A stretch of DNA of 64,000 nt from Bacillota bacterium. GTDB taxonomy: Bacteria; Bacillota; SHA-98; UBA4971. Position 1 is the first letter of the stretch. The number at the start of each line of letters is the position of its first letter. Shown one piece after another: positions 5,868 to 51,623 of this stretch. The stretch covers positions 62,001 through 126,000 of the forward strand of contig JASEJE010000001.1 in the NCBI GenBank assembly GCA_030024085.1, in the 5' to 3' direction. The notes below the pieces were generated by a model. The model was not told the origin of the DNA. It ran no database searches and saw only the letters and a list, made by a program, of their open reading frames with translations. The translations under genes and the position numbers were made by a program.

Positions 5868-6812
5868 TTACGGTGTGTCCAGGTGGTCGAGCGCCTCCTT
5901 GACTTTCTTCATGTCTTCCCAGACAGGGCGCTTCTTCGTCTCGTCGCGGAGGAGGGCGGCCGGGTGGAACGTCGGCATGTACATGATGCCGTCCTTCTTG
6001 AACCAGGTGCCCCTCACTCGCGTTATGCGCGCTTTCTTGTCGATGAGCGTCTGGGTTGCAAGAGCGCCCAGGCACACGATTATCTTCGGCCTTATGGCCT
6101 GGATCTGGGCGATGAGGTGAGGCAGGCATGCCTCAGCCTCTTCCCACGTGGGAAGGCGGTTTCCGGGCGGTCGGCACTTGACCACGTTTGCGATGTAGAC
6201 CTCGTCACGCTTGATGTCTACCGCAGCGAGGATCCTGTCCAGGAGTTGCCCTGCCGCGCCCACAAATGGCCTGCCCTGGATGTCTTCCTGCTGTCCGGGT
6301 CCCTCACCCACGAACATGAGTCTGGCGTGCGGGTTCCCCTCGCCGAAAACGACCTGGGTGCACCCGGCCCGGAGGTCACACCTCTGGCACGTCCGGCATC
6401 CTCTTTCGAGCTGCGTCAGACTCGCTGCGGTCTGCTCCGCCGCCACCTTTTCGCTTCCCTTCTCATTTCCGTCCTCTCTTCCCTCTCCCATTCCCTCTCC
6501 CCCGGCTTCCACCGTCCCGGGCACTGCGCCAGGTCCTCCGTTCGATATGCAGACCGGCGCGTCCTCCGGGGTGGACGCAAGCTCAGGCCAGAGGATGGCC
6601 TGCCCAGGGTGCGCCTGGTCCGTGGACTCCCCTGTGAGCGCGGCTACCTGCGACTGTTCGTCTATTGCTATTCCGGCTACGTCGTCGAAGATGGGGAGCG
6701 GCGGCTGCCACTCACTGTCCGGCACCTTTCCTCGCCTCCTGAAGCGCTGTCTCGGTAGAAAGGTTCTCCATTCGCGGTCGCAAACCTGCACGTACGCTTC
6801 ACCTGCAGGCAT
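5868..6812 (-). CDS. Type-4 uracil-DNA glycosylase
   Basis: Removes uracil from DNA in base-excision repair; family 4 enzymes carry a [4Fe-4S] cluster. Visible motifs: GCRTCQRCDLR (first cluster cysteines), GEGPGQQED (motif 1, uracil pocket), KCRPPGNRLPTWEEAEAC (remaining cysteines) and MPTFHPAALLRD (motif 2 with the catalytic-loop His). The family core is about 200 residues. This frame has roughly 115 extra N-terminal residues, acidic and low in complexity. An internal ATG at 6491 (MGEGREDG) with GGGGGAG just upstream may be the true start. The upstream gap to the tRNA holds no gene. Confidence 0.9.
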   Translation of the reverse strand: MPAGEAYVQVCDREWRTFLPRQRFRRRGKVPDSEWQPPLPIFDDVAGIAIDEQSQVAALTGESTDQAHPGQAILWPELASTPEDAPVCISNGGPGAVPGTVEAGGEGMGEGREDGNEKGSEKVAAEQTAASLTQLERGCRTCQRCDLRAGCTQVVFGEGNPHARLMFVGEGPGQQEDIQGRPFVGAAGQLLDRILAAVDIKRDEVYIANVVKCRPPGNRLPTWEEAEACLPHLIAQIQAIRPKIIVCLGALATQTLIDKKARITRVRGTWFKKDGIMYMPTFHPAALLRDETKKRPVWEDMKKVKEALDHLDTP

Positions 6813-7002
6813 GGCATGGCATGGACAGTCTCTTCAGTTCCGTCCCGTCGCGTCCCTTGCTGTCCCGTGCCGTCCGTCCGGCCGGAGACTGACCAGAATC
6901 CAGCCGCTGCAAGCCCCGCCCTTCAGGGCCGGGGACAAGGCGCTTTCTCCGTGCGAGCGTCCACGAGCGGGCGACCGTGTGTGGGCGAGGTCCACGTCCT
7001 GT

Positions 7003-7031
7003 TTGACATGTTGCCAGCCTTCGAGTATACT
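7003..7031 (+). promoter_or_regulatory. tRNA-Pro promoter
   Basis: A consensus TTGACA (7003-7008), 17 bp and TATACT (7026-7031), 31 bases before the mature tRNA start. Confidence 0.85.
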
Positions 7032-7062
7032 ATGCATGTAGCAACAGGATACCAGGTTTGGT

Positions 7063-7139
7063 CGGGGCATGGCGCAGGTTGGTAGCGCGCTTGGTTCGGG
7101 ACTAAGAGGTCGGCGGTTCGAGTCCGCCTGCCCCGACCA
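7063..7139 (+). tRNA. tRNA-Pro (anticodon CGG)
   Basis: A 77-nt cloverleaf with acceptor CGGGGCA / TGCCCCG, D-stem GCGC / GCGC, anticodon stem CTTGG / CTAAG with loop TTCGGGA (anticodon CGG), T-arm GGCGG-TTCGAGT-CCGCC and an encoded ACCA end. It reads proline CCG codons, common in this GC-rich genome. Confidence 0.95.
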
Positions 7140-7168
7140 TTTCTTTTCTGCTGATGGCTTCTTCCCCC

Positions 7169-7879
7169 CTACGCTCCCAGGTAAGCCTTTCGTACGTCCG
7201 CGTTGGCTGCGAGCTCATCGGCGGTGCCAGAGAGCACGATTCGGCCGGTTTCGAGTACATAGCCCCGTGCCGCCGTGGCAAGGGCCTTTCGTGCGTTCTG
7301 CTCAACGAGAAGGACGCTCACGCCTCGCTCGATGAGGTCTCTTAGCACCTGAAAGGCCTTATCCACAAAGATCGGCATGAGCCCGGTGGACACCTCGTCT
7401 ACCAGGAGAAGCCTGGGCCGCGCCATCAGTGCCCTGCCTATCGCTAGCATCTGCTGCTCCCCTCCGCTCAAGGTCTTGCCCACCTGGTGCCTGCGTTCGC
7501 GCAGAATCGGGAAGAGGCCGTATACCTCCTCTATGGAGGCACGTACAGTGGATCTATCCCGCTGCGAGTACGCTCCGATGAGGAGGTTTTGCTCGACCGA
7601 GAGGTCTGGGAAAACGCGCCTTCCCTCAGGTACCATCGCCATGCCGAGCGTCGCCCTTTCCCATGGGGACATGTGTCCGATATCCTTCCCCAGAAATGTG
7701 ATGCGGCCGTCGAAGTTCCGGTGGAGCCCCATCAGGGTGCGGAGGAGCGTGGTCTTGCCCGCCCCGTTGGCCCCGATTATCGCGACGCTGTCCCCCTGTC
7801 CCACGTCGAAGGATGCGCCGTGTATGACCTCCATGTCGCCGTAACGCACGGCAAGGCTCTCAACGGTGAGCACCTTCAC
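7169..7879 (-). CDS. livF: LivF, branched-chain amino acid ABC transporter ATPase (system 1)
   Basis: A 236-residue ATPase that, with LivG, powers uptake through the LivHM pore. Walker A is GANGAGKTT at about 36-44, the signature is LSGGEQQMLAIGRALMARP, Walker B is LLLVDEVS and the H-loop position is read through VLLVEQNA, the LivF hallmark. The ending NADVRKAYLG is the family terminus. Its ATG overlaps the LivG stop by four bases (ATGA), implying translational coupling. It is the last gene of the livKHMGF operon. Confidence 0.93.
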   Translation of the reverse strand: MKVLTVESLAVRYGDMEVIHGASFDVGQGDSVAIIGANGAGKTTLLRTLMGLHRNFDGRITFLGKDIGHMSPWERATLGMAMVPEGRRVFPDLSVEQNLLIGAYSQRDRSTVRASIEEVYGLFPILRERRHQVGKTLSGGEQQMLAIGRALMARPRLLLVDEVSTGLMPIFVDKAFQVLRDLIERGVSVLLVEQNARKALATAARGYVLETGRIVLSGTADELAANADVRKAYLGA

Positions 7880-28107: not shown

Positions 28108-31100
28108 CTACGACAGGTACGCCTCCCGGATGGTCTCGTCCTTCAGGAACCCGCCCGCAGGCCCTGATGCGACAATCCGGCCTGCTCGCAGCACGTAGGC
28201 CCGGTCAGCGATGGCGAGCGCCGCCCGGGCGTTCTGCTCTACCAGCAGCACGGTCGTCCCCGCCCTCCTGATGTCCTGGATCGTCTGCATGACCTTGTCA
28301 ACGAGCACGGGTGCAAGGCCCATGGACGGCTCATCCATGCAGATGAGCTTCGGGTTTGCGATGAGCGCACGGGAGATCGCGAGCATCTGTTGCTCGCCGC
28401 CGGAGAGCGTCCCCGCCTTCTGGTGGCGCCTTTCGGCAAGCACCGGGAAGAGCTCGAGGACCTCCTTGATGCGCTCGGCGACCTCGCGCCGGTCGCCGAG
28501 GACGTACCCGCCGAGCTCAAGGTTTTCCAGGACGGAAAGCCCAGGGAAGATCCTGCGACCCTCGGGGACCAACGCGATCCCGGCCCTTGCGATCTCGGAG
28601 GTGGGCATGCCGTCTATCCTCCGGCCCATGAATCGGATCTCGCCCGTCGGCGGACGCACGCGGCCGAGAATGGTCCTCAGCAGCGTAGACTTCCCCGCGG
28701 CGTTGCTGCCGAGGACCGTCACGATCTCGCCGCGCTGCACATGGAGGTCGACTCCCTGGAGAACCTTGACTGCGCCATACGACGAGTGGACGCCCCTTGC
28801 CTCCAGCAGGACTTGCCCACCCTCACCTGAGTGAGGATTCGTCAATCCCTGCTTGCTTTCCAGCGGCTGCCTGGTCACCAGCGTGGCACTTGGGGATGGT
28901 GCCCCAAGTAGGATGCCTTGGCAGTGCGAAGTCGGAGGGGTTTCCGCTCCTTCGCTCGGCGGTCTTGCGGTCTGTTGGCTCTGCGGGAGGCCGACGGCCG
29001 CCCCCTGCTCGGTGCCGAGGTAAGCCCGCATCACGTCGCGGTTCGACGCGACCTCGCCGGGCGTGCCTTCTGCGATCTTCTCGCCGTGGTCCAGGACGAT
29101 CACTCTGTCGCAGGTCTCGGCGACCACGTCCATGTGGTGCTCGATCACGATCACGGTGTAGCCGTGCTCCTTGAGCTGCTTGATCGTGCTCACCACGTCT
29201 CCGATCTCGTCAGGCGTCATCCCCGCTGTGGGTTCGTCCAGCAGCAGGATACGGGGCTTTGCCGCGATCGCCCGGGCGAGCTCCACTCGACGGCGGTGAG
29301 GATATGAAAGGTCACGAGCGGGCTCTCCTTCGCGTTCGGCCAGGCCGCGCCCGAGGAAGCGCAAGGCGTCCCGGGCGCACGCGACGGCGGATGCTTCGCG
29401 CGATTTGAACGCCCTGGTCCGCAGGACCACCGCGGCAAGGTCGCGCCTTGAGCCGAGGTGACAGCCGGCGAGGACGTTCTCGAGGACGCTCTGGCCCTCG
29501 AAGAGCCTGATGTTCTGGAAGGTGCGCGCGACGCCGAGCGCCGCTACCTTATGGGGCGGAAGGCCCACCACGCTCCGTCCGAAGACCATGACATCCCCGG
29601 ACGAAGGCCTCGTGACGCCGGTGATGAGGTTGAAGAGGGTGGTCTTCCCTGCCCCGTTCGGCCCGATGATGCCTACGACCTCGCCACGGCGCGCCACGAG
29701 GCTCACGCCGGAGAGAGCCGCGAGGCCCCCGAACACGCAATGGACATCACGAACCTCAAGTGCTGGTTGGACGGTTGCCGCCCCAATGGCCGCCTCCCGA
29801 GCGGGGTGCGGCTGCGCGACTCGCATAAGCGCGGGAGACGGGCGACGGATGTGGCCGGCCTGTGCGGCCAGCTCAGGCTCAGGCTCCTTGTCTGCCGCGT
29901 CTGCCACCGGTATTATCCGTGGCGACGCCTGTGCCTGACCTTGCGCCGGCCCCTGCGCCGTTCCGACCGCTGCCTCACGACCGCGCTGCCGCCGGCCGCG
30001 GCCGCCACTTGGCACCCGCACTCGGGCCGTCCCCACGGTAGCAACGGACGCTGCAGGGATGAGGCCACCGGGGCGGTAGACCACGAGAAGCACGAGGGCG
30101 ATGCCATAGATGAGCATCCGATAGACGCTATAGGCACGGAGCAGCTCCGGGAGGACCACCAGGGAAGCCGCCCCCATCACGAGACCGGGCAGGCTGCATA
30201 GACCCCCCAGGATTATCATGCAGTACACCGTGATGGTCTCGGCCATCGTGAAGTTCTGCGGAAAGACCGCCCCCTGCCACGAGGCGAAGAGCGCGCCCGC
30301 GAGGCCTGCGAGCCCCGCCCCCCACAGGAAAGCCATCACCCTGTAGCGCGGCACGTCCACGCCCATGCAGCCGGCAGCCACCTCGTCCTCGCGCAGCGCG
30401 GCCCATGCCCGTCCGATGCCAGAGCGGAGGATGCGGCCGGTTACCACGGCGGCCCCGACAGCGAACGCCCATATGAGGCAGTATGACGCCTCGAGCGAGG
30501 CTAACCTCATCCCGAACATGGCTGGTGGGTCGATTCCAACGATGCCGTTGGGGCCGTTGGTGATGTTCACAGGCCGGTCCAGGTTGTTGAGGAGGATGCG
30601 CACGATCTGCCCGAAGCCCAGCGTCACCATGGCAAGGTAGTCGCCGCGAAGGTGAAGCGTGGGAAGGCTCACGGCAAGGGCCGCCACGACAGCTGCCGCG
30701 ATCGAGCACGCGGCGCTGAGGATGAACGGCACGTGCAGGCCGAAGTGGGGAGACGAGAGGAAGGCATATACGTAGGCGCCGATGCCATAGAAGGCGACGT
30801 ATCCGAGGTCGAGGAGGCCGGCCTCGCCGGCCACGATGTTGAGGCCGATGGCGAGGATGAGGTACAGACCGACGGTGCCGCCCACGCGAAGGTAATAGAA
30901 GTTGTGCGTGAGGAGGGGGACCAGGCCCAGCACGGCCGCGGCGGCGTAGACTATCCCGCCGACACTCGAGGCGGAAAGAGGCCGGGCGGCGAGACGCGCG
31001 CGCAGCGTCGTCCCGGCAAACGCCTCGGCAAGCGTCCGGGTGAGCGTTCTCGCAGGCAGCCCTGTGCCTCGCCCCCGCCCTCGTCTTCCGCTTCGCGCCT

Positions 31101-31185
31101 GGCCAGGCGTTTGTACCGCCTCTGGTGCGCGTTCTGCGCACGAGCCCCCAGCCGCCGCTGCATCAGAGGCCCGTGCCAGTGCCAC
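28108..31185 (-). CDS. Single-chain LivM-LivG-LivF fusion (system 2)
   Basis: About 1025 residues from a GTG at 31185 directly after GGAGGTGAC (an upstream ATG at 31233 is possible). Domains in order: LivM permease (GLYLILAIGLNIVAGEAGLLDLGYVAFYGIGAY, about 100-390), a linker of about 100 residues rich in Arg, Gln and Ala, LivG ATPase (GPNGAGKTTL, ARTFQNIRLFEGQSVLENVLAG, VIVIEHHMD, about 480-730), a second linker of about 70 residues, and LivF ATPase (GSNAAGKSTL, LSGGEQQMLAISRALIANP, VLLVEQNA, about 800 to the end). All ATPase motifs look functional. With LivH and LivK upstream this is a complete amino-acid importer. The open frame is continuous with no stop between domains. Confidence 0.9.
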   Translation of the reverse strand: MALARASDAAAAGGSCAERAPEAVQTPGQARSGRRGRGRGTGLPARTLTRTLAEAFAGTTLRARLAARPLSASSVGGIVYAAAAVLGLVPLLTHNFYYLRVGGTVGLYLILAIGLNIVAGEAGLLDLGYVAFYGIGAYVYAFLSSPHFGLHVPFILSAACSIAAAVVAALAVSLPTLHLRGDYLAMVTLGFGQIVRILLNNLDRPVNITNGPNGIVGIDPPAMFGMRLASLEASYCLIWAFAVGAAVVTGRILRSGIGRAWAALREDEVAAGCMGVDVPRYRVMAFLWGAGLAGLAGALFASWQGAVFPQNFTMAETITVYCMIILGGLCSLPGLVMGAASLVVLPELLRAYSVYRMLIYGIALVLLVVYRPGGLIPAASVATVGTARVRVPSGGRGRRQRGREAAVGTAQGPAQGQAQASPRIIPVADAADKEPEPELAAQAGHIRRPSPALMRVAQPHPAREAAIGAATVQPALEVRDVHCVFGGLAALSGVSLVARRGEVVGIIGPNGAGKTTLFNLITGVTRPSSGDVMVFGRSVVGLPPHKVAALGVARTFQNIRLFEGQSVLENVLAGCHLGSRRDLAAVVLRTRAFKSREASAVACARDALRFLGRGLAEREGEPARDLSYPHRRRVELARAIAAKPRILLLDEPTAGMTPDEIGDVVSTIKQLKEHGYTVIVIEHHMDVVAETCDRVIVLDHGEKIAEGTPGEVASNRDVMRAYLGTEQGAAVGLPQSQQTARPPSEGAETPPTSHCQGILLGAPSPSATLVTRQPLESKQGLTNPHSGEGGQVLLEARGVHSSYGAVKVLQGVDLHVQRGEIVTVLGSNAAGKSTLLRTILGRVRPPTGEIRFMGRRIDGMPTSEIARAGIALVPEGRRIFPGLSVLENLELGGYVLGDRREVAERIKEVLELFPVLAERRHQKAGTLSGGEQQMLAISRALIANPKLICMDEPSMGLAPVLVDKVMQTIQDIRRAGTTVLLVEQNARAALAIADRAYVLRAGRIVASGPAGGFLKDETIREAYLS

Positions 31186-31346
31186 GTCACCTCCTCTGGC
31201 GGCCATCTCCGGGCTTTCCTCGTTAAACCTCATGGCTGTTGCATCTCCTCGCGATGTGTGTCCGCTGTCCGCGCGCGATCCCGGTGATCCTGGGTACGGA
31301 GGCTACCCCTCCACGGGTTCGCGGTGTGCTTTCGCCCCGCGCTGCC

Positions 31347-33926: not shown

Positions 33927-35849
33927 TTACCGGTCGACTATCGGCACGCCTCGCTCTGCGAGGCGACTTGCCCACTCGTCCAGGCCGAGTCTTCTCAATG
34001 TGGACGCGGTTGGAACGCCGGTCCCGACATCCCACCCCCGGGCCTCGTAATACTCGTCGAGCATCTCGTCGAGCGCAACCGTGCTGCCGCTCGTGGACCC
34101 GCACCCGGCGGGCATCGGCTCCACCCGAAAGCGCCTCGGGAGGGTGTCGTCCGCCCTTCTGACCCCGAGCGCCGTGATGAAGCATCGCTCCAGGTTCACG
34201 ATGCGCTCGCAGGCCGCCTGCACCTCGGCGCCGTCGAAGTCGAAGCCGGTGGCGGCCCCCAGCATGGCGGCCGCGTCGTCGAACGGCAAGACCTCCATGT
34301 TCACGATGGTGTTCTTGCACGCGTCGAGCGAGTCAGCGAGGGCGCACAGCTCCTCGAAATGCTTGACGACACGGCCTTTGCCCTTCTGCTCGAGCCTGAA
34401 GGCCGCTTCCCTTGCCCCGAACCTTCTCACGGCCGCCTCGGCGTCCTGGGTGAACTCGAAGGACGGCTCTGACCGGAGGTGGTCGCCGCCGCGGCTTGCG
34501 ACCGCGTTGCCCAGCGCGTAACCCTTGATGCCCCTGGGGTCAGCCATGAATATCTCGAGGCCTTTCACGTGCATGGCGAGGTCGTCGCTGCCCCGGCCGA
34601 TCTTGCGCGCCGCTTCACGGACCCCATCTGCGAGCATGTCCCCGAAGCCCTCGCGCGCTGCGATCTTGCGGACCAGGGTCTGCACGGCGCCGATGTTTCC
34701 CCAGGTAAGGTCGAGCCCGTCGGCCTCTTCGCGCGAGATGATCCCGCGCTCGAAGCACTCCATGGCAAAGGACACGCACTCCGCCGTGGAGATAGCGTCC
34801 ATCCCGGCGCGATTGCAGATGTCGAGGGTGGCGAGGCCTGCCTCAAGGTCGCTTGCGCCGACGCGTGAGGTGAAGGCCGCAAGCCCCTCGAACTCCGGTC
34901 CCTCACTCTTGAGGCCAGCGTATGGCCCGGACTTCACCTCGAAGAACCTGCTGCACGGGATGGTGCACGAAAAGCACGCCTTGCCCTTTACCCTGAGGCG
35001 CGCGGCAAGCCTCTCGCCGCTCACCTCGTCTGCATGCTCGAACCTTCCCGTCTGGAAGTGGCGAGTGGCGAGGCACCCGGCGGCGTTGAGAGCCGAGACG
35101 AGCCTCGTGGTACCCAGGGCGACTCTAATCCGGTACTCGGGGTGGTTCAGGATCCTGCCATCCAGCGCCCTGATGAGGTCGAGGAACTCGTCGGGGTGGG
35201 CGACCTCGAGGGGCTTCGTGCCGCGAACGACGATCGCTTTGAGTCCCTTGGACGCCATCACAGCACCCATTCCGGTCCGCGCCGCGGCGCGCACGAGGTT
35301 GCAGAAGATGCCCGAGAATCTGACTGCACGCTCGGCGGACGGGCCCACGCAGGCAACCTGCGCCCGGCGGCCGTGCCGCGCGAGCATCGCCTCTTGCGTC
35401 TCCCACACGTCGAGGCCCGCGAGGTCCCCGGCAGGAAGGACCTCGGCCCCGTCGTCGGAGATGAAGAGATAAGAGAGCCTGTCGGCCCGTCCGCGTATTA
35501 TGACCTGGTCATACCCGGCGAATTTCAGCTCCGGCCCAAAGAATCCGCCTGCGTTGGAGTCGCCAAGTATGCCGGTCTGCGGGGACTTCGAGGTGAAGTT
35601 CACACGGGCAGCGCCGGGGAAGAGCGTGCCGTCGAGGGGGCCTGTGCCGATGATGAGGACGTTCTCGGGGGAGAGTGGATCGACGTCGAGGTCGATCTCT
35701 CGGACGAGCCGCGCGACGTTGAGCCCACGTCCACCGACATACTGCATCGCGTCCCCCGCGTCGAGCGCCTCTATCAAGGCCCTGCCTGCGCCTCCGCCTG
35801 CGCCGAGGTCAACATCCAGTATCCTTCCTGCATAGCCGAAGAACCCCAT
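33927..35849 (-). CDS. Tungsten-type aldehyde:ferredoxin oxidoreductase
   Basis: 640 residues from the ATG at 35849 (MGFFGYAGRILDVDLG), with AGGAGG nine bases upstream. AOR-family enzymes oxidise aldehydes to acids with a tungsto-bispterin and one [4Fe-4S] cluster, reducing ferredoxin. Seen here: N-terminal pterin-binding segment GGRGLNVARLV, FTSKSPQTGILGDSNAGGFFGPELKFAGYD, the cluster motif CFSCTIPCSRFF (C-x2-C-x3-C) with a distal Cys in DSLDACKNT, and GIKGYALGNAVASRGGDHLR. It lies between a ferredoxin-like gene and a liv system, which suggests oxidation of aldehydes derived from amino acids. Confidence 0.93.
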   Translation of the reverse strand: MGFFGYAGRILDVDLGAGGGAGRALIEALDAGDAMQYVGGRGLNVARLVREIDLDVDPLSPENVLIIGTGPLDGTLFPGAARVNFTSKSPQTGILGDSNAGGFFGPELKFAGYDQVIIRGRADRLSYLFISDDGAEVLPAGDLAGLDVWETQEAMLARHGRRAQVACVGPSAERAVRFSGIFCNLVRAAARTGMGAVMASKGLKAIVVRGTKPLEVAHPDEFLDLIRALDGRILNHPEYRIRVALGTTRLVSALNAAGCLATRHFQTGRFEHADEVSGERLAARLRVKGKACFSCTIPCSRFFEVKSGPYAGLKSEGPEFEGLAAFTSRVGASDLEAGLATLDICNRAGMDAISTAECVSFAMECFERGIISREEADGLDLTWGNIGAVQTLVRKIAAREGFGDMLADGVREAARKIGRGSDDLAMHVKGLEIFMADPRGIKGYALGNAVASRGGDHLRSEPSFEFTQDAEAAVRRFGAREAAFRLEQKGKGRVVKHFEELCALADSLDACKNTIVNMEVLPFDDAAAMLGAATGFDFDGAEVQAACERIVNLERCFITALGVRRADDTLPRRFRVEPMPAGCGSTSGSTVALDEMLDEYYEARGWDVGTGVPTASTLRRLGLDEWASRLAERGVPIVDR

Positions 35850-35863
35850 GGACCCTTGCCTCC

Positions 35864-35971
35864 TGTTCGAACGCATCTCACCGCACGCGCCGTCCCCGGA
35901 TGGTAACACCGGCAACCCTGGCGAGGACCTGTGCGCCGAAAGCCGACGTGAATTCATGGCGACCTACTTGG
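35864..35971 (-). repeat. Foldback element, right half only (copy E)
   Basis: Starts at GTTCGAACGCATCTCACCG, nearly identical to the middle of the copy at 61803, and runs through the ACACCGGCAACCCTGG block to GGCGACCTACTTGG. It lies between the TIGR04076-ferredoxin gene, whose stop 35964-35966 is in its terminus, and the AOR ribosome binding site just outside the other end. Confidence 0.87.
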
Positions 35972-36794
35972 CGGTCCCGGACGGCACCGGTTCGGCGGAC
36001 TTCCCCGATGCGCAGCCTGCACCGTGCCCTCTTGCCTCGCCTATCGCGCCCGCGAGACCGTACGAAATCGCGCCAGTTGGGCATCTCTTGATGCACTCGG
36101 GGTCCCCGCCGCAGAGATCGCAGATGAGCGGGACCCCGGTCTCGGGATGGAAAGCCACGGCGCCAAAGGGGCATGCGTCGGCGCACGCGCCGCACCCGCT
36201 GCACAGGGTCTCGTCCACAACGACGCACCTGGTTTCAGGGTCCCGCGAGAGGACCCCGTTGGGGCATGCCTCTACGCACCTTGCGTTTCCGCACTGCCTG
36301 CACACCAGCGGACGGTCGATCCCGTCCTCGTCGACTTTGTCCACGTGTATCCTTGATAGCAAGTCGGAGAACTTCCGCTCGTGCGTAAAGCTGCAGATGA
36401 GCTCACATGCCCGGCACCCTGCGCAGAGCTTTTCGTTCACGAGCATCCTGGGGCGCGGGCCCCGGCCGCTGCAGGCGTCGCGGCCGGTGCGCCCGTCATG
36501 CTCTTTCCTTCCCTCGCCCGCGGGTTCGCCCACCCGCTCGATCCGGAATATGACCATGCCGTTTGGGTCGGGGCACGCGACCCGGACGGTGTCCGAGAGC
36601 CAGTCGTTGTCCTCGACGATGTTGCGCTCCTTTGCCGGGAGCATCGGGAGGATGCTCTGGAGCGCCCACAGGCACATGTGCCTTCCGTCAGGGATCGTGA
36701 TGCGCCCGCCGCTCACCTCGAAGTAGTCCCCGACATGCATCGGGAGATCACAGAATCCCCGAATCTCGTCAACTACTACCCTGAGATCATACAT
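35964..36794 (-). CDS. TIGR04076-domain / multi-cluster ferredoxin fusion, AOR electron-transfer partner
   Basis: 276 residues from the ATG at 36794 (MYDLRVVVDEIRGFCDLPMHVGDYFEV), GGAGG 11 bases upstream. Residues 1 to about 92 match the TIGR04076 domain (CDLPMHVGD, then VACPDPNG). Residues of about 112 onward form an HycB/DMSO-reductase-type iron-sulfur subunit with four cysteine clusters: CAGCRACELIC, CRQCGNARCVEACPNG, CSGCGACADACPFGA and CDLCGGDPECIKRCPTG. It probably carries electrons from the adjacent AOR. It is the first structural gene after the T-box leader. The stop is supplied within repeat copy E. Confidence 0.83.
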   Translation of the reverse strand: MYDLRVVVDEIRGFCDLPMHVGDYFEVSGGRITIPDGRHMCLWALQSILPMLPAKERNIVEDNDWLSDTVRVACPDPNGMVIFRIERVGEPAGEGRKEHDGRTGRDACSGRGPRPRMLVNEKLCAGCRACELICSFTHERKFSDLLSRIHVDKVDEDGIDRPLVCRQCGNARCVEACPNGVLSRDPETRCVVVDETLCSGCGACADACPFGAVAFHPETGVPLICDLCGGDPECIKRCPTGAISYGLAGAIGEARGHGAGCASGKSAEPVPSGTAK

Positions 36795-37011: not shown

Positions 37012-37452
37012 AAAAAAGCCCGTCCCGTGAGGGACGAGCTTGAAATGTGCCCGTGGTGCCACCCTGGTGAGGCAGGAAGACCCTGCCCCACTCGTTACCA
37101 GGATACGGCCTTCGGAACGACGACTCCTCCGGCGATATCCCTGCCCTGTAACGGTGGCTTCCGGCTAAGGCCTACTCGGCCGTTCTCGGATGGGATGCGC
37201 TGCCGCCTCCACCCTGTACCCCGCGCCTACCCTCCGCCGCACCCTCGCGGCGCTGCGAGGATAGCTCGCACACCGACCTTTCAGCCTGCGACTCCGGGGC
37301 CCACTCGCCACACCCAATCTCCGCGGGGCTTGCACCATCCCCCGCTCGCTCAGGATGAGGGCCTTCTGTGGCGACCTTCCCCTTCAACGTCTTTGGTATG
37401 TTCTTTACTTCCGGTTCCGCCCTTGCGTCTACTCGCGGTTCCAGATCCAGTT
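37012..37452 (-). promoter_or_regulatory. T-box leader (apparent tRNA-Trp specificity)
   Basis: On the minus strand: AGTA of the specifier-loop S-turn at 37409-37406; GATGGTGCAAGCC of the distal Stem I; GAG-TGG-G at 37306-37300, the expected GAR-codon-purine specifier position, giving TGG (Trp); the T-box AGGGTGGCACCACGGG at 37065-37050; then a terminator, AGCTCGTCCC / GGGACGGGCT plus six T (37040-37012). The bulge reads TGGC, which pairs with a G discriminator base, as bacterial tRNA-Trp has; branched-chain tRNAs have A. Uncharged tRNA would favour antitermination into the ferredoxin-AOR-liv unit. The 217 bases between terminator and first gene hold no gene. Confidence 0.85.
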
Positions 37453-37458
37453 GCCCCT

Positions 37459-37488
37459 ATTCTAGCAACACCTTTCCTCACTTGTCAA
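37459..37488 (-). promoter_or_regulatory. Promoter of the T-box operon
   Basis: Minus-strand TTGACA (37488-37483), 18 bp, TAGAAT (37464-37459). The -35 lies inside the last codons of the upstream dedA gene. Confidence 0.75.
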
Positions 37489-38155
37489 CAGTGGATTTTC
37501 GCCTGTGGATTCTCGCCCGTCGGCTCTTTGCCTGCGTGGGGCCTGCCCTTGGCAGTCTCGCTTGTGCTCTCCCCATATGTCGCGAGACCGTGACTTGCGC
37601 AGCGGCGAGGATACCTGCTGCGAGCGTGATGGGTCCAAGGTGCTGTTGGAGGAAAACGATGGCCCGTTCACCCATGGCCATTACCACAGCAGCCTCGAAG
37701 AAGAACCGCGCCCCACGCCCGGTGAGCGAGGCAAGGAAAACGACGTCGGGCCGAACGCGGAAAACGCCCGCGGCGATGGTGAAAGCCTTGTATGGTATCG
37801 GGGTCAGGGCTGCGAGGGCCACTGCAAGCCCGCCGTGCCGGCGGAACATCCCTTCCGCTTTGCTTACGTAGTGCATGGGGATGAGGCTTCGCAGCACCGT
37901 CCAGTTCAGCACCGCCCGGCCGACTTTCCGTCCGATCTCCCACCCGAGTAGACCGCCAAGGGAGGAGAAGACCGTGCAGAGAAAGGCGTAGACCAGCGCC
38001 TTTCCGGGATTGAGCACGGCCATGGGCACGAGCAGGACATCGGGAGGTATCGGGAAGAACGATGCTTCCGCGAAGGCTACCACGACGATGCCTGCCACAC
38101 CGTATGCCATGAGCGCCTGTGCGATTGATTCGGACAAGGTCGCAAGCAAGTTCAT
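37478..38155 (-). CDS. DedA-family membrane protein
   Basis: 225 residues. The DedA/SNARE-associated domain shows FAEASFFPIPPDVLLVPMAVLNPGKALVYAFLCTVFSSLGGLLGWEIGRKVG and the conserved FRRHGGLAVALAALTPIPYKAFTIAAGVFR. Members are undecaprenyl-phosphate or phospholipid flippases. The 30-residue tail is basic and Arg-rich. Its end overlaps the -35 of the T-box promoter. Confidence 0.88.
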   Translation of the reverse strand: MNLLATLSESIAQALMAYGVAGIVVVAFAEASFFPIPPDVLLVPMAVLNPGKALVYAFLCTVFSSLGGLLGWEIGRKVGRAVLNWTVLRSLIPMHYVSKAEGMFRRHGGLAVALAALTPIPYKAFTIAAGVFRVRPDVVFLASLTGRGARFFFEAAVVMAMGERAIVFLQQHLGPITLAAGILAAAQVTVSRHMGRAQARLPRAGPTQAKSRRARIHRRKSTVDK

Positions 38156-46261: not shown

Positions 46262-47044
46262 TTACGATGACACCACGGCGGCGCTTCCCTGCCCTGCCTG
46301 CGCGGGCCGGCGACCTGCGGCGGGCTTGCGCCCCATCCCGAGATACGCCTGCTGGATCCTGGGGTCCTGTCGCAGCTCGCGCGAAGGGCCGGCGAGCACG
46401 ATCCTCCCTGTCTCCAGCACATACGCTCTGTGCGCCACGCGCAAGGCTATTCTGGCGTTCTGCTCCACCAGCAGGATGGTCACGCCCTCCCGGTTGATCT
46501 CCCCGATCGTGCGGAAGATTTCCTGCACCAGCTTAGGCGCAAGGCCGAGCGAGGGCTCATCCAGGAGCAGCACTTTCGGGTCGGCCATAAGCCCGCGGGC
46601 GATGGCGAGCATCTGTTGTTCGCCGCCGGACAATGTGCCGGCGAGCTGGCCGCGGCGCTCGGCGAGCCTGGGGAAAAGCCGGTATGCCCGCTCGCGCCCC
46701 TCCCTCACCCGCGTCGCGTCCTGCCGGTACCTGTAGGCCCCGAGGTTGAGATTTTCCTCGACCGTAAGTGTTGCGAAAACCCGGCGCCCTTCTGGCACGT
46801 GCGCGACCCCGAGTTCCACTATCCTGTGCGCTGCCGCCGCCTGAATCTCCTGGCCCGCCAGGCGAATGTGCCCGGCGCGCGGTCGCAGGAGGCCGGAGAC
46901 GGCCCGTAGCGTCGTGGTCTTGCCCGCGCCGTTGGCACCGAGGAGCGTTACGATCTCTCCCTGCTCCACGGCAACGCTAACGCCTTTCACGGCCTGGACA
47001 TTTCCGTATGAGATGTGAACGTCATCAAGCTCAAGCAGGCTCAT
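46262..47044 (-). CDS. livF: LivF ATPase (system 3)
   Basis: 260 residues from the ATG at 47044, which overlaps the LivG end by 14 bases. Walker A GANGAGKTT, signature LSGGEQQMLAIARGLMADP, Walker B VLLLDEPSLGL, VTILLVEQNA and ending PRIQQAYLG. The tail extends about 25 Ala/Gly/Arg-rich residues past the family terminus. Confidence 0.92.
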   Translation of the reverse strand: MSLLELDDVHISYGNVQAVKGVSVAVEQGEIVTLLGANGAGKTTTLRAVSGLLRPRAGHIRLAGQEIQAAAAHRIVELGVAHVPEGRRVFATLTVEENLNLGAYRYRQDATRVREGRERAYRLFPRLAERRGQLAGTLSGGEQQMLAIARGLMADPKVLLLDEPSLGLAPKLVQEIFRTIGEINREGVTILLVEQNARIALRVAHRAYVLETGRIVLAGPSRELRQDPRIQQAYLGMGRKPAAGRRPAQAGQGSAAVVSS

Positions 47045-48005
47045 GCAAATCCGTCCTTGCGCGCCCAGGATCGCCTGTGCCCCCGGCGCAGGCGTCGCCG
47101 CAGGCCTCGCCGGTGTCGTTGGCCTTGACGGCCCCGCCGACCGCGCCGGCTCCGCTTGTCGCAGAGGCATCGCTGATCCCATGGGCTGCGTCGTATTCGT
47201 CCAGCTCGTCGGATTCGTCGTCGGTGCCCAGGTACGCCTCGATAACGCGCGGATCCTGCTGAACCTCATCAGGGGTGCCCTCGCTGATCTTCTGCCCGTT
47301 GTCCATAACGGCAACGAGGTCAGATACTCCCATGACCACCTGCATATCGTGCTCGATGAGGAAGACAGTGATCCCCGACCCTCTGATCTCCTGGATGAGA
47401 TCCATGAGGCCGGCCGTTTCCTCCTCGTTCAGGCCGCCGGCTGGCTCGTCGAGGATCAGAAGACGCGGTCGCGTGGCGAGGGCCCGCGCTATCTCGAGGC
47501 GCCTCCGGTTGCCGTACGGAAGGTTGCGCGCAAGCTCGTCGCGGCACGCCCACAGGCCCATCTGCCGGAGGCAGCGCTCCGCCTCACCCCTCATGCGCTC
47601 CTCCTCCCTGCGCTGGCCCGCTGTCCTGAAGATGGACGCCGCCACCCCGGCCAGGCCCCTGCAGTGCTGGCCTGCCAGCACATTCTCGAAGCACGTGAGG
47701 TTTTCGAAAAGTCGCAGCGTCTGGAAGGTGCGCGCGATGCCCGCCTCCGCAACCTGGTGCGGCAGCTTGCCGACGATCTCTCGCCCCGCGAACCTGATGC
47801 TGCCTGTGTCCGGCCGGTAGATGCCCGTGATGAGGTTGAACACGGTCGTCTTGCCGGCGCCGTTCGGGCCGATGAGGCTCGTGATGCTGCCCTCGCACAC
47901 ATCGAGGTCGAAGGCGTCTACAGCGCGGAGCCCGCCGAATCGCTTGCTTACCCCCCTCAACTCGAGGAGGACCCCGTTGCCCGCGTTGCCCGCGCCCATC
48001 ATCAC
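47031..48005 (-). CDS. livG: LivG ATPase (system 3) with long C-terminal tail
   Basis: 324 residues. Walker A GPNGAGKTT, ARTFQTLRLFENLTCFENVLAG, LPYGNRRRLEIARALATRP, LILDEPAGGL and VFLIEHDM are the LivG set. The fold normally ends at VIEAYLG; here about 65 further residues follow, acidic then Gly/Ala-rich (DDESDELDEY and onward). Such tails resemble the linkers of the system-2 fusion. The ATG overlaps the livM stop by four bases. Confidence 0.9.
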   Translation of the reverse strand: MMMGAGNAGNGVLLELRGVSKRFGGLRAVDAFDLDVCEGSITSLIGPNGAGKTTVFNLITGIYRPDTGSIRFAGREIVGKLPHQVAEAGIARTFQTLRLFENLTCFENVLAGQHCRGLAGVAASIFRTAGQRREEERMRGEAERCLRQMGLWACRDELARNLPYGNRRRLEIARALATRPRLLILDEPAGGLNEEETAGLMDLIQEIRGSGITVFLIEHDMQVVMGVSDLVAVMDNGQKISEGTPDEVQQDPRVIEAYLGTDDESDELDEYDAAHGISDASATSGAGAVGGAVKANDTGEACGDACAGGTGDPGRARTDLHEPA

Positions 48006-49006
48006 TCACCCTCGCCTTCCTGCAGCTTGGTCGTCCAGCGCCTGCTGGGCCACAGCCCCTGCGGGCGGAAGATCATCATGAGCACCATGGCGGCGCCGAA
48101 GAAGAGCATCCGGTACTGTGCGAAGTTCCGCAGGATCTCGGGCAGCACCAGCATCGCCGCGGACCCCAGGACCACGCCGGGGATCGATCCCATGCCTCCC
48201 AGCACCACGATGCAGAACAGGATCACCGACTCCATGAACGTGAAGCTCTCGGGCGATATGACCACCAGCTTGGCGGCGAATACGGTTCCGGTCGCGCCCG
48301 CAAGCCCCGCGCCCAGCGTGAACGCCAGGAGCTTGGCCGCGCGTACGTCTATGCCCATGGCCTCGGCCGCCACTTCGTCCTCGCGGATGTAGTTCCATGC
48401 ACGGCCGATCCGGGAGCGCTGCAGGCGCACGAGGGCGAACATGCTCACCGCGACGAACACCCAGACCAGGTAGTAGAAGTGTATCGGCTTTTGTATCGTA
48501 AGGCCGAGGACGCGAAACTGGTCCAGCATGATGACGCCGTTCGGACCACCCGTGAGGCCCCACGGATTGTTGAGGAGGCTGATACGGATCATCTCGTTGA
48601 GGCCTATCGTCACGATGAGGAGGTAGTCGCCCCGAAGGTGGATGATCGGACGCGCGAGCACGTAGCCCGCGAGCCCAGCTGCAACTCCGCTCAGCGGCAA
48701 GAGCAGCCATAGCGAGATCCCAAGTTGCCCGCTGAGGATAGCGGTCGTGTATGCCCCAATCGCGAAGAATGCCATGTGCCCCATGTCGAATAGGCCCACT
48801 TCGCCCACGATGATGTTCAGGCTGAGGCCGAGGAGCACGTAAATGCCCCAGAAAACGGCGACGTCGATCCAGTAGTCGCTTGTGACCATCGGGAAGACCA
48901 ACGCAGCTACAGCAATGGCTGCGACCGCCCAGGCCGAGTAGCGGTCGACAAGTCCGGATATACGGCGTCCCGGCACAAGCCCGGGTCCGAGACGCGGCGA
49001 TGCCAC
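48002..49006 (-). CDS. livM: LivM permease (system 3)
   Basis: 334 residues. LivM signatures: GLSLNIIVGEVGLFDMGHMAFFAIGAYTTAIL, then IGRAWNYIREDEVAAEAMGIDVRAAKLLAF (coupling loop) and CIVVLGGMGSIPGVVLGSA. Codon 1 is an ATG at 49006; a 148-base gap separates it from livH. Confidence 0.92.
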   Translation of the reverse strand: MASPRLGPGLVPGRRISGLVDRYSAWAVAAIAVAALVFPMVTSDYWIDVAVFWGIYVLLGLSLNIIVGEVGLFDMGHMAFFAIGAYTTAILSGQLGISLWLLLPLSGVAAGLAGYVLARPIIHLRGDYLLIVTIGLNEMIRISLLNNPWGLTGGPNGVIMLDQFRVLGLTIQKPIHFYYLVWVFVAVSMFALVRLQRSRIGRAWNYIREDEVAAEAMGIDVRAAKLLAFTLGAGLAGATGTVFAAKLVVISPESFTFMESVILFCIVVLGGMGSIPGVVLGSAAMLVLPEILRNFAQYRMLFFGAAMVLMMIFRPQGLWPSRRWTTKLQEGEGE

Positions 49007-49154
49007 ATGCTACACTCCTCTCCTACTCGAGCTGCGAAAACCGCCAGGGCCGCTGCCTCCCTCTTACCCTTCTCCTGCCCTTCCTGCCCCTTTCCTGCTC
49101 CGTCCCGATGAACCTACCAGGGCCGCACCCAGCGCTCGCAATCGCGACCTCGCC

Positions 49155-50060
49155 CTAAACCTTTTCGGCGACGCGTTCGCCCAATAGGCCGGTGGGCCGG
49201 AAAATCAGCAGCAGAATCAGGATAAGGAACACGAACACGTCTTTCCACGCCGCAGAGATATACCCGCCTCCGAGCATCTCCAGTATGCCGAGCAGCAGGC
49301 CCCCAACCATGGCCCCTGGAATGTTCCCGATCCCCCCGAGGATTGCGGCAGTGAAGGCCTTCAGGCCATATGACCACCCGACCGTGAAGTGGATCTGCCG
49401 ATAATACAGCCCCAGCAGCACGCCCGCCACAGCACCGAGGCCAGGGCCGATGACGAAAATCAGCCGGATGATCTGATCGACGTTGATTCCCATGAGCCTC
49501 GCGGTGTCGTGGTCGATGGCCGTGGCGCGGATGGCCGCGCCTACCGTCGTGCGCTGGACGAACAGGTACAGGCCGGCCATGAGCAGGATGGACACCATCA
49601 GGATGAGCACCTGCATGAAGCCTATGTGGACGGCCCCGATCTCCCACCTCACGTCAGGGACGGCCCACGGAGGATACGCCCGGTAACGCGGGCCCCAGAC
49701 AAGCATGGCTGCGTTTTGCAGGAATATCGAGACGCCCATGGCGGACACGACCGCGGTCAGGCGGTTCGAGCGACGAAGAGGACGATAAGCCGCGCGCTCC
49801 ACGAGCACCCCGAGGATGGCAACCCCAGTCGCTGACGCGAGCACGGTCACCGGCAGCGCCGCCCACAGAGGCAGGGCGCTGCCCACGAACGTCGCAACCA
49901 GCAAAGTGAAGCCGAAATACGAGCCAAGCATGAAGAGATCGCCGTGGGCGAAGTTGATGAGCCTCATCACGCCGTAGACCATCGTATAACCGAGTGCAAC
50001 CAGCGCGTACACCGCACCCACGGTAAGGCCGTTGACGAGTTGCTCTATGAATAAAGCCAT
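49155..50060 (-). CDS. livH: LivH permease (system 3)
   Basis: 301 residues from the ATG at 50060 (MALFIEQLVNGLTVGAVYALVALGYTMVYGVMRLINFAHGDLFMLGSYFG). The coupling loop is VGAAIRATAIDHDTARLMGINVD and the later FTAAILGGIGNIPGAMVGG block is typical. Repeat copy B lies 73 bases upstream, between it and livK. Confidence 0.92.
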   Translation of the reverse strand: MALFIEQLVNGLTVGAVYALVALGYTMVYGVMRLINFAHGDLFMLGSYFGFTLLVATFVGSALPLWAALPVTVLASATGVAILGVLVERAAYRPLRRSNRLTAVVSAMGVSIFLQNAAMLVWGPRYRAYPPWAVPDVRWEIGAVHIGFMQVLILMVSILLMAGLYLFVQRTTVGAAIRATAIDHDTARLMGINVDQIIRLIFVIGPGLGAVAGVLLGLYYRQIHFTVGWSYGLKAFTAAILGGIGNIPGAMVGGLLLGILEMLGGGYISAAWKDVFVFLILILLLIFRPTGLLGERVAEKV

Positions 50061-50133
50061 ACCTTCGGCGCGGAAGCCCCGCCTCCGCGCGGGACCTCCG
50101 CGCCGGCACCTCCATCCATTCACGTCTCAATCT

Positions 50134-50345
50134 CTGAGTAGATCGCCACAAGTTTGCGCTGCTTTCCAGTGCGCAAGGCCTGTCCAGGGTTGCCGGTGTC
50201 GCACTCCGGGGACGGCGCGCGTGCGGTGAGCCTCGTTCGAATTTGGCGCACAGGCTAGCCGAATTTCAGGCACCCCGCCCTGGCAAGCACCGGCAACCCT
50301 AACACCGCCGGAAAAAGTGTCGCAAACTTATGGCGCCATACTTAG
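50134..50345 (+). repeat. Foldback element, full copy B (212 bp, opposite orientation)
   Basis: Same element as copies A and C but inverted. The end CTGAGTAGATCGCCACAAG is at 50134 and the end containing TATGGCGCCATA at 50328-50345. The blocks GGGTTGCCGGTG, GACGGCGCGC, TTCGAATTTGGC and CACCGGCAACCCT align over the full length. It is more diverged than A is from C. It lies in the livK-livH spacer and is not in contact with a stop codon. Confidence 0.9.
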
Positions 50346-50471
50346 AGCCGGGGGTGGCCCGCTCTCCGCCCTCTGCTCTCCACGCCCCACTCCCCGCTCC
50401 CCGCCGCGAGCGCCCCTGCCGCGCCAGCGGGTCCGGCTTTCGGGCGGACGGGCGTGGCGGGCGCTACGGCA

Positions 50472-51623
50472 CTACGGCTGGTATGGCTTGAACTTCCCGT
50501 CGGCGGTCACCTCGTACGCAAGATATATGGCTCCCTCGCGGTCACCTGCATCGTCGAACGAGATCGGCCCGGTGATGCCCGGAAGGTCCTGCATCTTGTT
50601 ACGGAGGTAGTCCGCCAGCACCTTTGAATCGGTGGACCTGGTGGCATCGATGGCGGCGGCGATGACTTTGAGCGCGTCAGCAGCGTAAACCGGCCAGGGG
50701 CTGCTCGGCGCCTCCTTATGCCGGCGAATGTACTCATCGAGGAAAGGCTTGGACTCGGGGTATCGGAGGTCGGTCGGCAAAGGCTCCTGAGTCATCAGGG
50801 ATCCTTTCGCGATCTCCAGGCCTGCAATGCTGATGAACTCGTCGTTGATGGCGGCGTTGCCCCCGACGAAGAAGGCCTTGCTGCCGAGATCCCTCATCTG
50901 CCGAATTATGAGGCCGGCCTCGGGGTAGTACGCAGTGTAGTACACCACCTCTGGCTTCGTGGTCAACATCCGGGTGATTACCGGTGTGAAGTCGCGCTCG
51001 CCTGGAGTGACTGCGTCGTAGAACACGACCTCGGCCTTCCTTGCCTGCTGCAGCGAGCGCCTGGCGGCCTCCGCGAGGCCCTTTCCGAATGTGGTGTTGT
51101 CGTGCAGGATGGCGACGCGCTTCAGTTTCAGGGTCTCATTGACGAATTCGGCAAAGAACGCTCCCTGGCGGTCATCCCGGAAGCACGTGCGGAAGAAGAA
51201 CTTCCACCCGTGGGATGTGAGTTGCTCCGCAGTGGACCCATATGCGATATTGAGGAGCCCCGCCCTCTCGTAGATGGTCGCCGCCGGCTCGGTCACCGAC
51301 GAACCGTAGGTGCCTATCACAGCGACCACTTTCTCGCTCAACATGCGCTGTGCAACCACTGCGCTTTGCTTGGGGCTGCACTGGTCGTCCCCGAGCACGA
51401 TCTCGATTGGCCGCCCAAGAATGCCGCCCTTCGCGTTGATCTGGTCCGCCACGATCTGGACGCAGTTTCGCGCCATCTCACCTTCGTACGCCCACTGCCC
51501 GGTGATAGGGGCCTGAAGACCTATGCGCACCGGCTCTACGGCGGCAAATGCGCCCGTCCCCAGCCCCAGCCCTAGAAGCAACACCAGAACAACAAGACAC
51601 CAACTCGACCGACAACCTCTCAC
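50472..51623 (-). CDS. livK: LivK-type substrate-binding protein (system 3)
   Basis: 383 residues. Signal peptide WCLVVLVLLLGLGLGTGAFA, then VRIGLQAPITGQWAYEGEMARNCVQIVADQINAKGGILGRPIEIVLGDDQC. Type 1 periplasmic-binding fold of the branched-chain amino acid family. Spacing to livH is 411 bases because repeat copy B lies between them. Confidence 0.9.
   Translation of the reverse strand: MRGCRSSWCLVVLVLLLGLGLGTGAFAAVEPVRIGLQAPITGQWAYEGEMARNCVQIVADQINAKGGILGRPIEIVLGDDQCSPKQSAVVAQRMLSEKVVAVIGTYGSSVTEPAATIYERAGLLNIAYGSTAEQLTSHGWKFFFRTCFRDDRQGAFFAEFVNETLKLKRVAILHDNTTFGKGLAEAARRSLQQARKAEVVFYDAVTPGERDFTPVITRMLTTKPEVVYYTAYYPEAGLIIRQMRDLGSKAFFVGGNAAINDEFISIAGLEIAKGSLMTQEPLPTDLRYPESKPFLDEYIRRHKEAPSSPWPVYAADALKVIAAAIDATRSTDSKVLADYLRNKMQDLPGITGPISFDDAGDREGAIYLAYEVTADGKFKPYQP

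Follow-up and report, generated by a model that had tools for sequence, protein, structure and literature searches.

A T-box leader specific for tryptophan appears to control one transcript that encodes a TIGR04076-ferredoxin fusion, an aldehyde:ferredoxin oxidoreductase (AOR) and a LIV-type importer. We read this transcript as a tryptophan-acquisition operon in which the ferredoxin and the AOR help to supply tryptophan, and give this reading a probability of roughly three in four. The locus lies within the window, by which we mean the whole 64,000-nucleotide stretch of DNA that was analysed. Its elements, all on the minus strand, are the following.

37459..37488, minus strand: promoter TTGACA-18-TAGAAT with TG before the –10 region (extended –10); pattern scan, 11/12 positions
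37027..37396, minus strand: T-box leader with stem I, a linker with stem III and the antiterminator; RF00230
37301..37303, minus strand: specifier UGG (Trp) within GAG-UGG-G-CCCC; sequence, alignment and calibrated register
37030..37065, minus strand: antiterminator with the T-box bulge UGGC, which pairs with G73-CCA of tRNA-Trp; model alignment and covariation
37016..37041, minus strand: intrinsic terminator of 11 pairs with a U-run; terminator scan
35964..36794, minus strand: TIGR04076 domain fused to a ferredoxin, 276 aa, several 4Fe-4S motifs; profiles
33927..35957, minus strand: AOR, aldehyde:ferredoxin oxidoreductase family; PF02730 224.7 bits, PF01314 415.3 bits
32636..33892, minus strand: LivK-type substrate-binding protein; PF13458 225 bits
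31347..32300, minus strand: LivH-type permease; PF02653 143.3 bits, NF008011 243.9 bits (under its cut-off of 379)
28108..31233, minus strand: LivM, LivG and LivF in a single 1041-aa ORF; PF02653 and two ABC_tran stretches

A VTT-domain gene (37478-38155) and the ferredoxin gene flank the leader. A promoter-like pattern of this kind is expected by chance 0.1 times per 1 kb, and transcription would start near 37452; the span assigned to the leader in the earlier note (37012-37452) runs from the terminator to about this position. RF00230 matches over its full length (positions 1-219), including stem I with the specifier loop between two helices, which bears out the T-box that had been recognised from the letters alone. 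The match reaches 48.8 bits (E 1.2e-7 for the whole 64-kb window on both strands, 1.3e-9 when only a 701-base stretch is scanned), under the Rfam gathering cut-off of 93 for this family. Our own covariance model R1, built partly from the window's own sequence, gives the leader 89.7 bits. The 5′ strand of the terminator is the 3′ strand of the antiterminator, so that the two hairpins are mutually exclusive, and when each hairpin is scored alone, the terminator is the more stable one (–19.5 vs –5.9 kcal/mol), which suits a switch that opens only with a tRNA.

Covariation was assessed on an alignment of nine leaders, with a test structure drawn from the window sequence, which favours this structure on the share of cells paired and less so on double changes: 93.4% of the pairs are standard and 12 of the 36 pairs are changed on both sides. 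None of 500 shuffles scored as high, pairing drops to 41-53% when the helix partners are slid, and both antiterminator helices are paired in 100% of the cells of the leader alignment. The RNA is a class I T-box and in itself ordinary.

Since the leader scores under the Rfam cut-off, we calibrated the register of the specifier on the T-boxes of the same genome. A genome scan with RF00230 returned 15 matches at E<=1, 12 of full length and three that are 3′ pieces. All 12 full-length T-boxes (L001-L012) score 27.9-80.4 bits, under the gathering cut-off, and annotation at this score would therefore lose all 12 of them in this high-GC lineage. The specifier was read by hand as the three bases that precede, with one base in between, the proximal stem's 3′ strand; the available part of the TBDB description gives an identical rule, in which the specifier occupies positions 2-4, counted from the specifier bulge's end (PMC7778990). 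This rule is correct in all nine other T-boxes of the genome whose downstream gene fixes the amino acid: AUC (ileS), CUC (leuA), ACC (thrS), UCC (serS), GUC (valS), GGC (glyQ), CUC (leuS), AUG (metG) and CCC (proS). A UUC T-box with tlyA and a probable pheS behind it, the latter unconfirmed by the profile scan, has no amino acid fixed by its gene. The same is true of the T-box L003:1501-1879, with CAC and the bulge UGGG, ahead of a family-3 binding protein; this bulge presumably fits C73 of tRNA-His, and the gene likely encodes a histidine importer. We also observed a lysine riboswitch (L009:2095-2278, 114 bits) on the strand opposite the leuS T-box, at a distance of about 480 bases.

Applied to the window leader, the calibrated rule reads UGG, the triplet that the earlier note had named. 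The bulge base forms a Watson-Crick pair with the discriminator in 8/8 calibration T-boxes for which gene and tRNA were both found, and the host tRNA-Trp, with anticodon CCA, carries G73, which fits the bulge UGGC. Tryptophan specificity of the leader is supported. The further claim that G73 is missing from Leu, Ile and Val tRNAs stands for Leu (five genes) and Val (three genes), which all have A73; its Ile part found no counterpart, as no tRNA-Ile was recovered from the loci scanned in the genome. Other specifiers were considered and rejected: the frame-shifted triplets GUG (Val, A73) and GGG (Gly, U73, the discriminator of the host tRNA-Gly) have discriminators that cannot pair with UGGC, and AGU (Ser, G73) is offset by two bases from the register shared by the calibrated T-boxes.

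Profile scans agree with the gene order that had been proposed downstream of the leader, from the TIGR04076-ferredoxin through the AOR, livK and livH to LivMGF. The ferredoxin fusion matches TIGR04076 with 77.2 bits (cut-off 33) and Fer4 families over their cut-offs, and is kept across seven aligned sequences; a structure prediction with seven sequences had a mean pLDDT of 45 and was set aside. For the AOR, the nearest solved structures are 9mqx and 1aor. Aligned with 1aor, it has both AFOR domains and keeps cysteines 288, 291, 295 and 494, which we take to be the cluster cysteines, together with Glu313 and His448, presumably active-site residues. With these residues kept, the protein looks like a working AOR-type enzyme, with a predicted tungsten cofactor and a predicted activity on aldehydes or acids. 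It thus shares its family and these residues with the Pyrococcus furiosus AOR (1aor), which differs in being archaeal and for which we know of no TIGR04076-ferredoxin partner.

The LIV-type importer is complete, with a binding protein, two permeases and two ATPases. Each of the five congener loci inspected, two of them being one and the same contig, likewise has LivMGF as one long ORF (903-960 aa). At E 1e-5, LivK matches Peripla_BP_6, ANF_receptor and Peripla_BP_5 only, and the profile scan at this threshold gave no match to a TrpX-type binding protein. Its nearest solved structure is 1usg, the leucine-specific binding protein, of which S79 and T102 are kept while E226 is replaced by D, W18 by I, L77 by M, C78 by N and Y202 by P. 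We take S79, T102 and E226 of 1usg to contact the amino-acid part of the ligand and W18, L77, C78 and Y202 to form the side-chain pocket. Judged by these positions, LivK is taken as a putative binder of an amino acid or a related compound, with an altered side-chain pocket in which nothing is Trp-specific; the ligand of the transporter would be tryptophan or an indolic or aromatic precursor. The match of all Liv components to LIV families and the proximity of LivK to the leucine-specific protein would also suit an importer for branched-chain amino acids in front of which a Trp T-box was captured by chance, with no metabolic logic. We regard this as very unlikely: LIV-type binding proteins also take other amino acids and aromatic acids, and the persistence of UGG with other transporters, described below, speaks against it. 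A second liv cluster is present on the minus strand of the window (46262-51623), for which the window scan gave no T-box match.

Between 27500 and 37016, no other minus-strand promoter was found by scan, and the one weak, five-pair terminator-like site, inside the AOR gene, is no more than shuffles give. The gap before livH measures 335 bases and could contain a hidden promoter.

AOR orthologues with 84-92% identity are present in all five congeners, and the order Fd-AOR-LivK-LivH-LivMGF is complete in four of them. At the orthologous locus of the fifth (G002), the order is seen up to LivK and unmatched beyond, and the leader falls past the contig end. The six aligned genus leaders are those of the window, of four congeners and of a contig from the G002 bin whose leader is 99.8% identical to the window. 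Both promoter hexamers, the specifier strand, the T-box and the terminator are kept in all six leaders, and base changes in the terminator stem preserve pairing. The strings GAGTGGGCCCC and GGGTGGCACCACGGG are common to the six, the latter representing the bulge UGGN and antiterminator region. The near-identical contig (DKEX01000012.1, bin UBA6811; L082 and L113) is 8.9 kb long. The other AOR orthologue of this bin is 89-90% identical, the AOR on DKEX01000012.1 is split into three tblastn pieces, and the contig is possibly a stray one from the species of the window, with assembly errors.

Loci outside the genus were taken from a contig scan for the ferredoxin fusion (L113-L141) and from 398 genomes of the phylum with an AOR (L142-L147); a second search of the phylum mostly returned genomes already found. 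Removal of the congener contigs (L113-L116), a spurious hit that tblastn did not recover (L141) and a duplicate (L144, identical to L121), and addition of L081, left 30 loci. In seven of them, a T-box is located directly upstream of the ferredoxin gene.

L125, Clostridiaceae BRH_c20a: T-box, 129.6 bits; UGG, UGGU
L128, Halanaerobiales: T-box, 108.7 bits; UGG, UGGC
L145: T-box, 107.6 bits; UGG, UGGC
L129, Clostridia T3Sed10_282: T-box, 98.4 bits; UGG, UGGC
L143: T-box, 96.7 bits; UGG, UGGC
L142: T-box, 69.5 bits; UGG, UGGC
L135: T-box, 44.8 bits; UGG, UGGC

Five of these seven leaders exceed the Rfam cut-off of 93. Counting the genus and the outside loci together, the specifier is UGG in 13 of 13 leaders and the bulge is UGGC in 12 and UGGU in one, a wobble that TBDB, in the part available, records for 46% of the Trp T-boxes. 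The relaxed-threshold Rfam search covered 19 loci and the remaining ones were screened with R1 alone. Because R1 contains few base pairs and failed to detect the leader at L135, which Rfam did recover, a negative from it carries little weight, and there may be further T-box leaders among the loci screened in this way. At L122 and L132, the contig begins too near the ferredoxin gene for a judgement of the upstream region.

Some loci deviate from this arrangement. At L126:9844-9934, half a T-box (antiterminator and terminator, UGGU) follows right after a peptidase M20 ORF, ahead of the Fd-AOR genes; it has no room for stem I, was left out of the seven and is a decayed or rearranged leader. L131, L133, L134, L136, L137 and L138 carry TIGR04076-ferredoxin fusions with no AOR in the stretch examined. 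At L128, a second T-box (7957-7762, minus strand; 76.8 bits) has the bulge UGGU and contains GAAAUACCCCUC, in which the specifier reads UAC (Tyr). It precedes an NhaC-type antiporter gene (6277-7686) near the AOR operon with the Trp T-box, on the opposite strand.

The transporter that accompanies the ferredoxin and the AOR varies. It is of the LIV type in this genus and in G127 and G092, where the stretch examined contains only LivK and the start of LivH; an APC permease in BRH_c20a, G028, Mesoaciditogaceae and Desulfovibrio cuneatus; and an NhaC-type antiporter at L128, with a similar ORF in the same place at L132. For some T-box/ferredoxin loci, no transporter partner was found. UGG is held across eight lineages with three transporter kinds, which counts against a chance capture by a branched-chain amino acid importer. 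In a tree of AORs, the ferredoxin-fusion enzymes form one group (100/98 support), and the T-box leaders occur at four distinct places within it, namely the LIV group, L129, L125, and L128 with G259. The G002 row of this tree was marked as having a T-box via the second contig of that bin, the one near-identical to the window. Either repeated gain or loss could have produced this scatter.

These observations also bear on the idea that the T-box serves the importer alone, the ferredoxin and the AOR being passengers with a general redox role. AORs are numerous, with four family matches in the genome of the window, and in many genomes, some with trpA, no T-box was detected with the AOR-ferredoxin pair. 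However, it is the transporter that is swapped or not found, while the T-box and the ferredoxin gene persist, with the ferredoxin gene directly after the T-box in 7/7 outside loci. The four separate positions in the AOR tree and the links to trpBA and trpS described next likewise speak against passengers, and we consider this explanation quite unlikely.

Two loci place the ferredoxin fusion beside tryptophan genes. At L135, the T-box and the ferredoxin fusion are followed by trpS (TIGR00233, 266.6 bits over a cut-off of 176.75), and no AOR was found at the locus. The remark of the earlier note that no aminoacyl-tRNA synthetase gene follows the leader therefore holds for the operon of the window, but not for this relative, which has one in second place behind a like leader. 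In D. cuneatus (L139), trpB (568 bits), trpA (196 bits), the ferredoxin fusion, the AOR and an APC permease stand in a row. An AOR of this kind is present in only one of 79 Desulfovibrionaceae genomes, so the trpBA link is a single case that cannot be replicated within the family; the block was perhaps acquired. No T-box was found in D. cuneatus or in Desulforamulus putei, the two culturable relatives. A distant pair in L140 (Aminicenantes) adjoins a SNF-family transporter, with IorA and IorB nearby.

Genome searches for the tryptophan pathway covered trpA, trpB and trpC. TrpA, trpB (over the cut-off) and trpC were absent from all six genomes of the genus, and the three genes were also absent from the three sister-genus genomes searched, whereas all three were present in 4/4 other genomes of the class. 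The controls of these searches gave matches in 14/14 named genomes, over the cut-off for trpB in 13. With these three genes missing, the genus is predicted to be auxotrophic for tryptophan. TrpA is also absent in G127 and G092, and hence in all eight LIV-type genomes. Auxotrophy is not universal among T-box genomes, since BRH_c20a and T3Sed10_282 have trpA. The gene occurs in 2/13 T-box genomes vs 8/15 genomes that have the gene pair with no T-box found (Fisher p 0.055), a difference that is only suggestive, as the congeners do not count as independent cases, genes may be missing from incomplete MAGs, and the L126 half-T-box genome and one duplicate (G163, identical to G403) were left out of the count. 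A complete IorA is encoded in five of the six genus genomes; G001 has none over the cut-off.

Taken together, the switch would work as follows. When tryptophan is plentiful, charged tRNA-Trp would leave the antiterminator unstabilised and transcription would end at 37016. When it is scarce, uncharged tRNA-Trp would pair its anticodon CCA with UGG and its 3′ end GCCA with UGGC; the antiterminator would thereby be held, and the polymerase would read past the terminator. The ferredoxin, the AOR and the importer would then be made, the importer would bring tryptophan or an indolic or aromatic precursor into a cell predicted to be unable to make tryptophan, and the ferredoxin-linked tungsten enzyme would help to supply it. 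In this scheme, tRNA binding, read-through and the transport substrate are deduced from the elements described above. The view of the importer as an acquisition system under the control of uncharged tRNA-Trp had been put forward in the earlier note, and it gains from the calibrated register, the conservation in six of six genus leaders, the seven outside UGG leaders and the predicted auxotrophy, with the ligand inferred.

What the AOR does is less certain. The earlier note had seen it as an aldehyde oxidase for aromatic amino acids, and AORs are held to oxidise such aldehydes in peptide-fermenting archaea and in the anaerobic phenylalanine metabolism of Aromatoleum. Accordingly, the importer could take up tryptophan for fermentation, with the AOR oxidising the indole-3-acetaldehyde derived from it and the T-box keeping protein synthesis first. 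The family and the nearest solved enzymes, which are aldehyde:ferredoxin oxidoreductases, the complete IorA in most of the genus and the IorA/IorB genes near the distant relative in L140 would agree with this. Nevertheless, we hold fermentation to be unlikely, because a degradative enzyme would not be expected in an operon that is switched on when tryptophan is short, the pair adjoins trpBA in D. cuneatus and the ferredoxin accompanies trpS in L135, and the genus is predicted to be unable to make tryptophan. The induction under tryptophan starvation, the missing trp pathway and the neighbouring trpBA and trpS genes rather lead us to argue for a role of the ferredoxin and the AOR in tryptophan supply over breakdown, with substrate and direction as predictions. 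Of the earlier interpretation, the switch, its tryptophan specificity, the control of the operon and the acquisition of tryptophan hold up, and the aldehyde oxidase fits poorly.

A specific form of this supply role can be proposed only tentatively, as possible but doubtful. The ferredoxin and the AOR might form a tungsten enzyme for tryptophan salvage, in which reduced ferredoxin converts an imported indole carboxylic acid (e.g., indole-3-acetate) to the aldehyde level without ATP. The product would pass through indoleacetyl-CoA to indolepyruvate by IOR and by transamination to tryptophan, and uncharged tRNA-Trp would turn on the whole in bacteria whose trp pathway has been lost. The complete IorA in five of six genus genomes would allow a route from indole-3-acetate to tryptophan. 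We know of no TIGR04076 domain and no T-box associated with AOR_Aa of Aromatoleum aromaticum. According to the available part of its description, this enzyme resembles the one in the window in being a tungsten AOR with a polyferredoxin subunit, differs in having an FAD subunit, and can use low-potential donors for the reduction of acids (PMC9295118); a reductive role is accordingly possible for the AOR here. A title cited in the same source links AOR_Aa to phenylalanine metabolism, and Aromatoleum evansii served there as the tungsten-competent host for AOR_Aa.

Tryptophan T-boxes are known from other settings. TrpXYZ of Streptococcus suis is a transporter of a different type, from the ABC_sub_bind family. 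In the available part of its description, a Trp T-box (UGG, UGGC) drives this Trp ABC importer in a tryptophan auxotroph (PMC9382623), and the system is like that of the window in its specifier UGG, bulge UGGC, terminator, ABC amino-acid importer and Trp-auxotroph host, but unlike it in that the operon as described there has no ferredoxin and no tungsten enzyme. Wels 2008 (PMC2494555) further describes Trp T-boxes upstream of genes for NSS transporters, of trpE and of trpB-like and anti-TRAP genes; they share with the window the RNA class, the amino acid of the specifier and transporters among the targets, but in the main text the words oxidoreductase and LivK do not occur. In the open-access literature, we found nothing that links a T-box to an aldehyde ferredoxin oxidoreductase, in line with the earlier note, which knew of no T-box described for an AOR operon. 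A search for T-box and tungsten gave no AOR operon in the titles and abstract starts among the matches listed, and TIGR04076 was met in one paper, as a neighbour of an isethionate cluster. New here are the target of the T-box, the recurrence of this target and the tie of this AOR subfamily to tryptophan.

AORs are abundant in anaerobes, and most of them have no assigned role. A tRNA switch that names an amino acid and is kept in unrelated bacteria offers hard evidence, of a kind seldom available, on the purpose of an AOR subfamily and of the uncharacterised TIGR04076 domain. It yields predictions of a growth condition (tryptophan limitation), of the ligand class of the binding protein and of the substrate class of the enzyme. 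It may also reveal an ATP-sparing route by which anaerobic tryptophan auxotrophs recover the costliest amino acid.
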